From positions 50,888 through 114,887 of the forward strand of contig MJGA01000053.1 of NCBI GenBank assembly GCA_001910725.1: a stretch of 64,000 nt of DNA. Direction: 5' to 3'. Position 1 is the first letter of the stretch; every line of letters starts with the position of its first letter. Shown here in pieces: positions 33,056-58,000 of the stretch. Both the position numbers and the translations under genes were made by a program. The DNA comes from Phanerodontia chrysosporium (lineage: Eukaryota > Basidiomycota > Agaricomycetes > Polyporales > Phanerochaetaceae). The notes beneath the pieces were generated by a model. The model saw only the letters and a program-made list of their open reading frames with translations. It made no database searches and was not told the DNA's origin.

Positions 33056-36000
33056 ATGTTACAAAATTTTTCTATTTTTAAAACTATATTTAATGATGCA
33101 CCACAACCTTGGCAATTAGGGTTTCAAGATAGTGCTGCTCCAGGATTCACAGGTATTGTCGAATTACATAATACAATATTTTTTTACTTAGTCGTTATCT
33201 CTGTTGGAGTTTTTTGGGTATTAGGTTCAATTATCTATTACTACAATTCTAAAAAATCACCTATCGTACATAAATATCTTAACCACGGTACATTAATTGA
33301 ATTGATATGGACTATCACTCCAGCTTTAATTTTAATTGCTATCGCTTTCCCTTCATTCAGATTACTTTACTTACTTGATGAAGTAATAAGCCCTACAATA
33401 ACAATAAAAGTAGTAGGTTTCTTTTTAGGTGGCCTAAATTTATATATATTAAAAAAAATGAAAGACACCATTTTTAATGGTCAAAAAAATAATTTGTACT
33501 ATCATACTAGGCCAAATAATAGTAGATTTAACATGCATCTAAGATTATGTTCTTACCATCAACGGATCTTAGGTAATAATAATTCTTTAACTTCTTTTCA
33601 AAATCAACGAAGGTTCTATTACATAAGTAATATAAGAGCTATTAACAGAATAGGTCCACATAATGAAGATGTGTTATCTGTCATTATAGGTTCAATATTA
33701 GGCGACGCCTATGCAAGTAATAGATCTGGTGAAGGTGTTAGAATTTGTTACAGACAAAGTAATATACACAAAGAGTATTTATTTTGGTTATATCATTTTT
33801 TATATAATAGGGGTTACACTAGTAATCTTCAGCCTAGACTATATACTAGAACACTTAAAAGTACAGAAGGAATAGTATATTACGGTTTTGAATTTCACAC
33901 CTTTAGCTTTAGAAGTTTTAGCTGGATACATAAGATGTTTTATAAAAATGGTAAAAAAGTTATACCCCTAAATATCTATGATTATTTAACACCATTGGCC
34001 TTAGCTGTGTGGATAATGGATGATGGTGGTTGGACTAATTCTGGAATTAGAATCGCTACTAATAGTTATAAACTTAAAGAAGTTGAACTATTAAATGATG
34101 TTCTTAAATTTAAGTATAACTTAGAAACAACTATTCAGAAAATATGGATAAAAGACCAATATTCTATTTATATAAAAAAACAATCTGTACCTAATTTAAG
34201 AAATATAGTTGGACCGTTTATACATTCTAGTATGCTATATAAACTAGGTTTAGATAATACATATTCAAGTTCTTTCAAGCGCGCAAGCGACACACACATA
34301 TATATAAAAGTCGTGAGAGGTAATATTTAATTATCTTTCTAAGAATTCTACAGAATTCTTAAAGGCGTTTTGCCTTTGGCGATGCAAGTGAAAACAGTTA
34401 AAATACTATCTTTAAATACCGGATTTAGTACAAGACTGTCAGTAAGTGGTTTATTTTTTTCTTCACTTATTGCAACAGACTGGGTCACTTGTGGGTGATA
34501 TAATTTTCATTATATTGCTTAATGTACAGTCGACATAATTACCATCCGGTCGGATGGTAGTTGCACCAATGGTATTGGTCTTATGAATACAGCGATTATG
34601 TAAATGAAAGTGGAGAATCAATCGAATTTGATAGTTACATGTTGCCTGCTGATCGATCTGGGAAATCGAACCCGTGGGCCCAACTGCCAAACTCCGGGGA
34701 CACCCTAAAGATCATAGTACCAAGCCAAAATGGAAACGTTTTGAGTGGCCAGAATAATTACCTGGGTATGGTAACAAGCTATGATATGAACGAAAGTGAA
34801 ATGGGTTATCGCGGATCTAAATCCAGCGTTATTGCACTGGTAAAAGAGCAACGAGTGGACGGTAGTTACAGTTTTCAAGTAGGACTGTTAAGGTGCACTC
34901 TAATGGCCCCTGTAAGGGGGTATCAAACTGAAATCCTTTCTAAAAAAAATAATGTATCTGAAAATGTAGTTGTTACAAAATACCCAAGTTAAATAAACTA
35001 GATTCTTGGTTTACTACTGGATTTGTGGATGCTGTCCGTCCTTTAGTCTTTGGTAAATTTTATTTAATATCAAATTTTTATTAGTTATAAAATTTGTATC
35101 TTTAGTTTTCTAAATAAAATTTACCGCTAAAGACATCTTAAGATGTCTAAATAAAATTTAGGCCTACCTAAATTTTATTAGTACTAATTTTATTAGGGTC
35201 GGTTATTTTAGTATTGAATTATATAAAGATTCTAAAGCTAAATTTAAGTATACTCCTAAATTAGTTTTTGGAATTAACTTACATGTTAAAGATTTACCTA
35301 TTTTTCTAAGTTTTAAGGAAACATTAGGAGTGGGAACTGTAAGTACAAAAGGAAAAGTCTCTAGTTATACAGTTAAAACATTTAAAGATCTAGCACTGAT
35401 TGTTAACCATTTTAAACTATATCCTCTTGTTTCCAGCAAATATCTTGTATATCAATATTGGTTACAAGCTTATAATATTATGGCAACAAAAGAACATTTT
35501 AATTATCAAGGTATGACAAAATAGGCTACCCTAAAAAAAATGTTATCATAGAGTCTAGCAAAGACAAAATTATAACTTTATTATAATTTTTGATAGTACT
35601 AATTTTTTTTTTTTTTTTACTCTAACACGAAACGAAAGAAACAGACAAAGACAAAAATTTTAACTTATTTCGGATTATCTTATAGTTTTAAAGAAGCTTT
35701 TCCTGATTTTAATGTTTCTTTAATTGATACTATGTCTTACAATTTTAGAGGTATTCCTCACCAGGAATGTGGGTAGCAGGATTTGCAAGTGGAGATGGAT
35801 CTTTTTATACTAAGTTTACACAGTATAAAGATACATTTCATACAGTTTAAAATAACTCTTCAACTTAAAGATGCTGCCTTATTAGAAGGTTTATACGATT
35901 ATCTTTCAAAATACTTTTCCCCTAACTAATAAAATTTGTTGCAAGACTAAATATACAAATTTTATAAGGGCTAATATTTCTTTCAACAAATATAAATCCA

Positions 36001-55000: not shown

Positions 55001-58000
55001 TTTCTTTAGACTTAATTAAAGAATTGGTGGCTCTCCTCTGTTGTGAAACAGAGGTAATAAATCTCGCTATATGCTGTAATAACTTAACGATACTTGATAC
55101 TATTATTTGTAAAAATTCAAGTATTTATTTTAAACCAGCAGGTTATTGTCTTAGTTACAAAATATTCTCAGAGACTATATGCGAGACAACTTGTATTCAA
55201 CAAAACTTTAGTGCATTCCACGCACTATACGGGTTTTAGCAATACTATCCCGGTCAATTGGCTTTCTTGGTTTGTTGGTTTTAGTGAAGGAGATGGTGCT
55301 ATTCTTAGTTATAATGGTCAACCTTTATTTGTACTAACACAAAAAGAAGAATCTGTTCTTCAAGATATTTTAAGTGTTCTTGGCTTTGGTACAGTACGTA
55401 AAACAGATAATAATGGTACTATTGTTTATCGATATGTTGTAGAAAATTTGACTGGAATTTTACTTCTAGCTACTATCTTTAATGGGAATTTAGTTATTCC
55501 TAATAGACAAGAACAGTTTGGTAAATGGCTATTTGATCTGAATCGAAAATTAGTTACACCGGGATCACGTATTTATGGTCTATGTTCTACTATTGTAATT
55601 AGTCCTTGTTTATTTAAACCTAGTTTGAAAGATGCTTGGTTATCAGGATTTACAGATGCTGAGGGGACTTTTAATGTTAACATTACTAAACGTGTAAACA
55701 CGGTTACTGGTTATCGAGTTCAACTACGATACTTACTAGACCAAAAATATGCTATAGATGTGTTAACACATATTTCTACTTTAGTTGGACATGGTAAAGT
55801 AATTGTACGAAGTACTGACATGTATCGATATTATTGTGATTCATTTATAGGACTTGGTAAGGTTTGCAGTTACTTTGAATCATTTCCCTTAAAAACTAAA
55901 AAGTTTAATTCATTTAATAATTGGCTTAAAGTGTTTAAAATGGTTAAAGAACATCTGACAGCAGAGGGTTTAGAAACAATTCGATCTATTAAGAAAACTA
56001 TTAATCCTAAAAACTAACAAACAAGTTGAACACGATAAACAGATTAAGGGGTGGGGGACAAGTTGAAGGTATAGTACCAACCTATTCGTAAGAATAGTTT
56101 TACTAAGTTATTTTTTTACAATAGTATACTTAGTAAAAAATTTTTGCACCATATGTTTGCTGTAGGTTTAGATGTGGATACCCTACATCTTGTGTTCACA
56201 GAACTTCATCAATTTGATTTTCTAGAACAAGAAGGTTATTATATTGGTGAATGGGAAAAAATCTTGCTATGTGCTGGAAACTCCTGTATAAGTAGTCCAC
56301 TCGTATTTATGACGTTAGGAAAAATCTACTTAAAAAAGTTTAAACTACCAGGACAATCAGCAGGAAACTTTAGTCTTAGTACAAAAGCTACGGCAAGTAC
56401 TAAAAATACTTATAATAGTTTTAGTAGTTTACCTAAAATTTCTGAACATGTTCCTAGGCATAATTCTAATTTAACTGATCAAGAATTTGGTTACTTTTTA
56501 GCAGGTCTAATAGAAGGAGATGGGTGGTTTGGTTTAAATGAATTACACATTATTTTTTCTGAAAGAGATGTATCTTTAGCTTATCTAATTAAAAAGCGTA
56601 TAGGATATGGTAACGTTTATAAAATAAAAGATAAAAATGCTGTAAGATATATTTGTAAAAATAAAACAGGGTTATCGATTATTTTATCTCTAATTAATGG
56701 TAAATTTGTAAGTAGATTTAAATATGAACAATTAATCAAACATAATTACAATAAAAACTTTAACTTTGAAATACTACCACCATCAAATGTTATTTTATTA
56801 GATAACTATTGGTTAGCAGGTTTTACTCAAGCTGTCCGAAGGGTCGGTTGTTTTTATATTAGCATAGTAAAAAGTAAAACTCATAAAACTGGATTTAGTG
56901 TTAGATTAGAATTTTCAATTAAACAAAATGATGTTTTACCTTTAAAACTTTTATATACTAAATTAAATATGGGAAATCTTTCTCAATATAGTAGTGGTAT
57001 TTGGTGTTATAAGAGTTCAGGCTATAAAACAGCAGCATTATTAATTGATTATTTTGATACATTTAATGTATTTGCAGGTAAATATGTAGATTATTTAAAA
57101 TTTAGAAAAGTCTATATTATGATAACTGAAGGTAAACATTTAGAAGAAAAAGGGATACTAAAAATAAAAAGACTAAAGGATCCTCAGAGACAAGTACGCA
57201 AGAAGTTTAATAAATTTATTAATTTATTTTATTAGATTAAGATACTGTCCAAATTAAAGACAAGAGCTTACTTCACAGCTGCGACAATGGTAATTGCTGT
57301 TCCTACTGGAATTAAAATCTTTAGTTGGTTAGCAACTCTATACGGAGGTAGCTTAAGATATACTACTCCTTTATTATTCACTTTAGGATTCTTAGCTTTA
57401 TTCACAATTGGTGGATTAACTGGAGTAGTTTTAGCTAATGCTTCAATGGATATTGCCCTTCATGATAGTATGATAAACAAGAAAACATTTTATGATATTT
57501 ATCTTCTACAAAGTAGTATTACTAGTGTTTTAAAAAAAGAAGAAAATACTATAAATAACTATATTGAACCCTTTTTTGTCGGATTACTTGAAGGAGATGG
57601 TACAATCACTACAGATTTAGGTAAAAAAAACATAAGAATAAGAATAGTTATAGCGTTAAAAAATGAAAAAAATAATCAAATTATGTTAAATAAAATACAA
57701 GAAATCATAGGAGGAAGAGTGGTAATAGAGAGGCAAAACAAATATGTCACTTGGATTGCAAGTAATCAAAGTGATATAAATAAAGTTTTATTAGTATTAT
57801 CTAGATACCCTCTACTCACAATTAGAAAACAATGTCAATTAGAATTTGCTAAAAATTGTTTACTTTATAAAGATTTTGATAATTTTATTTTAAACAGAAA
57901 AAATATGTATAAAAATAAGAAGAATATTTTAGATATTTTAAATAATGATAGTACAGAGATAAAACTGCCTTTTTATTTTAAACCTTGGCTTTCTGGCTTT

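Follow-up and report, generated by a model that had tools for sequence, protein, structure and literature searches.

Repeat inserts concentrate at the catalytic codon of LAGLIDADG_1 homing endonuclease genes in mitochondrial DNA of Phanerodontia chrysosporium

Why should different homing endonuclease genes of one fungal mitochondrial genome be broken at the same codon? The question is raised by a 64,000-nucleotide (nt) stretch of Phanerodontia chrysosporium DNA, here called the window, which comprises bases 50888-114887, and thus the end, of a 114,887-base mitochondrial contig (GenBank MJGA01000053.1; C95 below) in an assembly of 39 Mb. Coordinates prefixed C95 refer to the whole contig, all others to the window. 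Once fixed, homing endonuclease genes are believed to undergo neutral decay, according to the excerpted text of one review (PMC8393795). A preliminary description of the window had proposed that hairpin elements strike the catalytic codon of endonuclease genes in cox1, cox2, and nad5 introns, and every break it named is present in the sequence: after GCTG at 35034, 48016, 50593, and 56834, and after GCT at 14223. Its central claim, site-specific destruction of that codon across different endonuclease genes with a DNA-directed look, is supported, its DNA-directed look by lesions that ignore the reading frame and by inserts confined to an Ala GCN-G context.

Results

Inserts break LAGLIDADG_1 motifs at one point

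The host genes belong to the LAGLIDADG_1 family, having both a PF00961 match and LAGLIDADG motifs; Pfam finds 36 such matches across the assembly, every one on C95 or on C129, a contig that copies part of it. Exons of cox1, cox2, nad1, and nad5 were placed by Pfam, and the cox1 intron numbers i4, i6, and i11 are those of the preliminary description. Eight LAGLIDADG_1 motifs, in cox2 i2, cox1 i4, i6, and i11, nad5 i2 (both motifs), cob i1, and nad1 i1, carry inserts, of which the last three listed are additional to the five in the preliminary description:

35035..35200, plus strand: cox2 i2 insert, first motif; 166 bases after GATGCTG and before GGTTAT
48017..48061, plus strand: cox1 i4 insert, second motif; 45-nt A/T hairpin element TCCTT..AAGGG
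50594..50638, plus strand: cox1 i6 insert, second motif; 45-nt element identical to that of cox1 i4
56835..56845, plus strand: cox1 i11 insert, second motif; 11-nt TCCGAAGGGTC in place of two bases, net +9, frame open
14224..14324, plus strand: nad5 i2 second-motif insert; 101-nt hairpin after GCT and before GGTTGC
13583..13637 (region 13577-13643), plus strand: nad5 i2 first-motif insert; repeat GTTACC..GGGCAGG followed by GCGCTTC, exact ends uncertain
Motif at C95:21343-21349 (outside the window), minus strand: nad1 i1 insert; between GATGCTG and GGCGCA
C95:28071-28497 (outside the window): cob i1 insert; GCCG, then 427 bases consisting for the most part of dispersed repeats, ahead of GGGTCATTT

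In seven of the eight, the break falls after, or one base ahead of, the first base of the Asp/Glu codon of the motif, and the gene resumes at the GG of the following Gly codon; at the first motif of nad5 i2 the insert substitutes for the motif, with no break at an exact base. The residue lost aligns, in a homologue, with the acidic residue of both I-SmaMI motifs, and we take it to be the catalytic one. An insert of 11 to 166 bases is presumably too short to hold an intron core, as a twintron would have to; a gathering-level Rfam scan of the window returned only tRNA and small-subunit rRNA although the genes are split, and so provides no test of that idea.

Several details differ from the preliminary description. 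The second motif is struck in cox1 i4, i6, and i11 and in nad5 i2, as it held, and cox2 i2 is struck in the first. The insert lengths 11, 101, and 166 stand, while the two inserts given as 46 bases are one identical 45-nt element. Left ends of TCC recur in five genes, and the proposed form TCC..GGGTC or GGTC fails for cox1 i6, which ends GGGTG, and for nad5 i2, which starts TTGCC. Nor is the frame always cut: cox1 i11 keeps an open frame of 386 amino acids despite its insert.

Comparison with homologues fixes the insert-free state of cox1 i11, as the preliminary description had suggested it might. Relative to a homologue 97% identical, QADGCF has become QAVRRVGCF, the sole indel across 243 aligned codons; homologue P0001 of this gene matches I-SmaMI and I-OnuI. 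The best homologues of cox1 i4 (86% identity) and i6 (76%) place their inserts at the same codon, and their alignments reveal stops and other frame breaks beyond the insert in both genes. The outcome of the lesions is loss of the active site and usually of the entire reading frame too. A protein model of cox1 i11 (mean predicted local distance difference test score 71, below 50 at insert residues 133-135, about 50-60 in the second domain) is too weak for argument.

The string GCTGTCC occurs five times in the window against 1.2 expected, and four of these are motif break sites; the fifth (47264) lies in apparent coding sequence conserved in homologue P0121. Chance occurrence was rejected, 0 of 100 shuffles reaching five.

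All four premature stops in cox1 i4 and i6 (48108, 48324, 50170, and 50512) are TAA at a Glu codon preceded by T, possibly reflecting a G-to-T bias at TGAA.

Small indels strike the same codon

Among 38 motif sites on the contig, labeled by hand, 8 have inserts, 5 small indels, and 2 substitutions, and 23 are intact. The small indels, and two intact sites for comparison, are as follows (net lesion lengths were derived by hand):

45868..45883, plus strand: gene 45440-46250, second motif; FIDA/AFKV, catalytic residue and Gly lost, about -6; judged from the motif alone, no homologue compared
47562..47576, plus strand: cox1 i4 first motif; +1 at the catalytic codon (GGAG-CCT-GG)
50197..50211, plus strand: cox1 i6 first motif; -6, catalytic Asp and a Gly absent relative to homologue P0241
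52804..52818, plus strand: gene 52435-53150, second motif; GATACAG-CC-AGG, about -4, catalytic codon lost; the DNA relative L012 has DTDGSVYFN here
53829..53847, plus strand: gene 53790-54770, first motif; GCAG abuts GGTTGT, -2; judged from the motif alone, no homologue compared
49353..49360, plus strand: intact GCTGAGGG motif, no lesion
55658..55665, plus strand: intact GCTGAGGG motif, no lesion

The last two are the motifs that had been described as untouched, and intact they are. At four sites, namely cox1 i11, cox2 i2, cox1 i4 (first motif), and 53829, precisely the two bases that separate the first base of the catalytic codon from the GG have been lost or substituted.

Motif sites are hit far more often than chance predicts

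Repeat segments were defined by self-comparison (at least 20 bases, 85% identity); joining neighbors by hand and dropping four segments that match only the motif region of another endonuclease gene left 17 loci, the 11-nt cox1 i11 insert being too short to enter this count. The LAGLIDADG_1 genes span 15,835 bases, and seven of their 17 repeat inserts lie at a motif; with 9 bases allowed per site 0.37 are expected (P=3.5e-8), and with 27 bases P=5e-5. Leaving out the first motif of nad5 i2 gives P=1e-6 and 5e-4, respectively, and collapsing copy pairs leaves 5/15 at the motif (P=1e-5 and 2e-3). Three genes have close homologues, and of their 14 indels 5 lie within 6 of 820 codons (P=4e-8), two adjacent gaps at 50803 (cox1 i6) being taken as one. 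The essential exons, 7,793 bases with spans set by hand, are free of such repeat segments.

Lesions ignore the frame and follow the preceding codon

Of 12 lesions, 4 are in frame, or 5 when the homologue alignment is followed in counting the cox1 i4 insert as +39, and chance predicts 4. The codon before the catalytic residue matters: where it is an Ala codon (GCN), 7 of 15 motifs contain an insert, and of 22 others, mostly preceded by Gly, none does (P=0.0006; with copy pairs collapsed, 5/13 against 0/22, P=0.004). The first motif of nad5 i2 was omitted from both counts. In cox2 i2, nad1 i1, and cob i1 the Ala-coded first motifs are struck and the Gly-preceded second motifs intact, and the split tracks the preceding codon rather than the domain. 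None of the five intact A-E-G motifs is coded GCTGAA, a coding expected in 53% from the codon usage of six intact genes (P=0.02 in a post hoc test). Frame-blind lesions together with this dependence on an Ala codon therefore favor targeting at the DNA level.

Some inserts are copies of one another

The inserts are only partly independent, and copying from gene to gene also plays a part, because cox1 i4 and i6 on the one hand and cox2 i2 and nad1 i1 on the other are copy pairs: the former share the identical 45-nt element, and the latter are identical over the first ~50 bases from the left end. TCC opens the inserts of five genes, and GGTC stands immediately 5' of GGTT in three different inserts, a sharing that indicates either common descent or a terminus typical of one element. 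In body and left end, the inserts of cob i1 and nad5 i2 are unlike the others. The earlier argument from differing insert bodies thus fails in part, for the two copy pairs. A 37-nt core of the 45-nt element occurs at five exact places on C95, on both strands, two of them with flanks unlike those of the 45-nt element. Copies away from motifs include the following:

14455-14499, plus strand: third 45-nt copy, in the body of the nad5 i2 second domain
61869..61905, minus strand: 37-nt core copy of the A/T hairpin, with other flanks

Together with the 17 repeat loci in endonuclease genes, the core copies show the dispersal at unrelated sites that is typical of GC clusters and small inverted repeats.

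Five stretches (cox1 i4, both nad5 i2 motifs, the first 51 nt of cox2 i2, and cox1 i11) were folded as DNA and compared with shuffled sequence. The cox1 i4 element (48017-48060; -11.5 kcal/mol, z -4.25), whose sequence recurs in i6, and the second-motif insert of nad5 i2 (z -5.4) clearly beat shuffled sequence; cox2 i2 (z -0.4), the 11-nt cox1 i11 insert (z -0.7), and the nad5 i2 first-motif insert (z -1.0) have no clear hairpin excess. Of the hairpin nature ascribed to the inserts, folding thus supports that of the former and not that of these three stretches.

Four candidate patterns were dropped. A GTCCTTA-type end common to spacer repeats is not clearly enriched (19 against 13.6 expected), no wider CC..GG hairpin family having these insert ends emerged, and repeated TCC..AGGG strings belong to separate spacer families with no preceding GCTG. 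The (TCCGAAGG)8 array at C95:19755 (window -31132), eight tandem copies right after GCTG, was rejected as a motif hit; it lies off motif on the minus strand, in frame ahead of a LAGLIDADG_2 domain.

Three endonuclease genes contain a GC mini-hairpin around GTGCCCTTTGGGCC within their bodies, away from the motifs (window 50941, ~53890, and ~-13760).

Homologues in other fungi carry rare inserts at the same residue

Three protein searches returned 1113, 575, and 154 homologues, and the best 120 of each, 360 in all, were compared. Named homologues come from basidiomycetes, which include several polypores (Daedalea, Porodaedalea, Dichomitus, Phanerochaete, Perenniporia) as well as Agaricus and Hypsizygus. 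An in-frame insert at a catalytic residue is present in seven of the 360 listed:

P0036 and P0038: cox1 i11-type homologues
P0240 and P0214: cox1 i4-type homologues, first motif; P0214 has a DG expansion
P0310, P0351, and P0283: cox1 i6-type homologues

These make up 7 of 39 insertions, where 0.6 would be expected if all positions were equal (P=2e-6). The 39 events were counted by hand, taking those of at least two residues and omitting variable N-termini and sites that vary in more than ~10% of sequences. Protein databases hold open frames only, so that frameshifting inserts elsewhere would be invisible. Catalysis is, to judge from the aligned residues, also lost by other routes, with a non-acidic residue (N, K, A, V, or S) at a catalytic position in at least 15 of these 360 proteins; P0214 enters both counts. 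Short cox1 i6 homologues, which stop ahead of the second motif, were dropped as frameshift cases, the six checked stopping where the query has Trp, probably a TGA read as stop.

A second recurrent point is seen in the cox1 i4 homologues P0163, P0164, P0166, and P0172, each with an in-frame insert at FEIT^QKLD of CPPSGG-like sequence (P0172: PTGG).

A second copy of part of the contig

Contig C129, a redundant copy and not a second isolate, duplicates C95:27772-71243 with zero mismatches. The two are separated by 12 one-base gaps in or beside runs of C, G, or A. At each of these gaps, within C95:52096-62033, it is C129 that holds the extra base. Homopolymer under-calling in the window contig is the likely cause and calls for caution over single-base frame breaks. 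No nuclear copies were found with queries 47400-51000 and 56300-57300 in a search that skips simple repeats.

Discussion

Directed insertion and its rivals

We hold with about even confidence that short repeats like those scattered over the spacers of this mitochondrial genome, several of them hairpins, were put at a single point of LAGLIDADG_1 genes by a process that DNA sequence directs. That point would have the first base of the catalytic Asp/Glu codon on its left and the GG of the adjoining Gly codon on its right, within the sequence GC(T/C)-G^AN^GG. As to how it is found, we infer a double-strand break or a preferred insertion point at the motif, with repeats as filler; the inserts would then have been copied from gene to gene through the one stretch that these genes share, the motif itself. 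GIY-YIG enzymes cut leaving 2-nt 3' overhangs, and a two-base loss is what trimming of such overhangs before repair would leave; nothing ties the open GIY-YIG gene of the contig (C95:7942-8232) to the lesion sites. Equally possible would be a family of hairpin elements that prefers to insert after GC(T/C)G; the (TCCGAAGG)8 array, whose frame is read on the other strand, also follows GCTG.

Several observations weigh against such targeting. No nuclease with this target and no mobility function was identified, so that of the proposed parasite of homing endonucleases it is the destroyed codons that are seen and the parasite that is conjectured. As a strict target, the previously suggested GCTGA(A/G)GG fails in both directions: the cob i1 motif is struck at GCCG, and three motifs coded with GCTG are intact (GCTGAGG, that is GCTGAGGG, twice and GCTGATGG once). 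GANGG by itself is not the target either, with 55 copies, intact catalytic ones among them, in 18 gene spans. In the homologues P0240 and P0310 the insert comes after a Gly codon, contrary to the Ala rule, and the homologue enrichment becomes weak (P=0.09) if merely a tenth of positions tolerate insertion. An even insertion rate along the genes, which the preliminary description had named as evidence against it, is contradicted by the excess at motifs on the contig, and yet 10 of the 17 repeat inserts sit off motifs in these genes. With some insert ends shared, the independent events must be fewer in number than the sites. Five of eight viral_contigs scans and one genome_contigs scan yielded an insert-free DNA relative of the struck genes at one locus (L012, for cox1 i11). 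At the second motifs of cox1 i4 and i6 and in nad1 i1, the insert's own end masks whether bases were lost, and the 38-site table omits a degenerate fragment at 17683 and the LAGLIDADG_2 genes.

Copying alone might account for part of this pattern. If one or two original motif inserts had spread by short-homology gene conversion through the motif and later received nested repeats, no targeting would be needed, and the identical 45-nt copy in cox1 i4 and i6, the ~50 identical bases of cox2 i2 and nad1 i1, the TCC of five genes, and the GGTC-GGTT junction of three are what such spread would leave. This would not explain the cob i1 and nad5 i2 inserts, which differ from the rest in body as well as left end, nor the 45-nt element at 14455, which has no motif; the small indels at the same codon would require a separate cause, unrelated inserts occur at the same residue in homologues from other sources, and restriction to Ala-coded motifs is unpredicted unless homology demands it. 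We consider conversion without targeting improbable, if deserving of attention. Less probable still is selection for loss of the endonuclease with the maturase fold kept, under which any change of the catalytic residue, inserts included, would be favored. The open frame of cox1 i11 fits it, as do the non-acidic residues and the seven in-frame inserts among the 360 listed homologues. Selection for a dead but folded maturase should prefer in-frame changes, however, and the lesions here are frame-blind; selection for plain loss is disfavored because any frame-break position would serve equally well. Both LAGLIDADG catalytic residues take part in the cut, and still the inserts are confined to Ala-preceded motifs.

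Expression could survive if the inserts were translational bypassing elements. Ribosomes skip byp inserts in Magnusiomyces mitochondria, according to the excerpt of that report (PMC5009743), and the cox1 i4/i6 insert is a clean hairpin. The essential exons examined here are free of repeat segments, cox1 i4 and i6 carry extra stops and frame breaks, and skipping could not restore cox1 i11 or cox2 i2, in which two bases of the catalytic codon are absent, all of which makes bypassing very improbable. That chance or faulty assembly produced the pattern is hardly credible. The one-base gaps between C95 and C129 prove that such errors exist, and lesions of +1, -1, and -2 could be affected; against this, the two contigs agree at every lesion in their shared stretch, which includes cob i1 and nad5 i2, and the enrichment holds from P=2e-3 in the strictest count to 3.5e-8.

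Extending the reading of directed insertion beyond this contig is more tentative. Possibly, a DNA-targeting activity of fungal mitochondria, either a nuclease or a hairpin element of fixed preference, aims at the DNA of the LAGLIDADG active site, GCN-G^AN^GG, and disables many homing endonucleases, whether as a hyperparasite or as a defense; the in-frame inserts of the homologues would be its traces. If targeting is real, fungal mitogenomes should show repeat inserts massed at Ala-coded LAGLIDADG catalytic codons, and if a nuclease is responsible, GCTGAAGG-motif DNA should be cut and GGTGATGG-motif DNA left uncut. Repeated strikes on the one DNA stretch common to homing endonucleases would then be a directed force in their cycle, could help explain why dead endonucleases persist in intron-rich mitogenomes, and would provide an example, open to test, of a selfish element that exploits another at its most conserved point.

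Relation to known mitochondrial inserts

Hairpins that disrupt mitochondrial homing endonuclease genes are known; their concentration on the catalytic codon is apparently new, and we did not find it in the open-access PubMed Central literature, subscription papers being outside the scope of that search. One close likeness is to Saccharomyces cerevisiae, where GC clusters, short palindromes within F-SceI, F-SceIII, and RF2, often shift the frame and inactivate the protein (PMC7216626, excerpt). That excerpt reports three or six positions per gene, whereas here the focus is the catalytic codon of many genes, and the insert bodies are mostly A/T-rich, unlike yeast GC clusters. In Annulohypoxylon stygium, the available part of the report describes 44 small inverted repeat fragments of 12-106 bp, 31 of them hairpin-bearing, that vary between isolates, six lying within LAGLIDADG_1 or GIY-YIG domain regions and thought to hinder intron movement (PMC6140425); it gives position as conserved domain regions and reports no preference for the catalytic codon, in contrast to what we see. 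The 45-nt element has the A-run/T-run make-up of the Fusarium palindromic (A)n/(T)n repeats, proposed as a new type of mobile element in an article whose excerpted text contains no mention of insertion into endonuclease motifs (PMC7218506). The double-hairpin elements of Allomyces, cited here from a title alone, are likewise short inserts in fungal mitochondrial DNA, as are the Magnusiomyces byp elements, which by the excerpt cited above (PMC5009743) lie in most protein-coding genes, unlike the inserts described here.

Other features of the window

Window positions 8573-9973 hold an open frame of 466 amino acids, rich in Ser and Thr, with about ten 42-base tandem repeats (TETGSTLNNSSTS).

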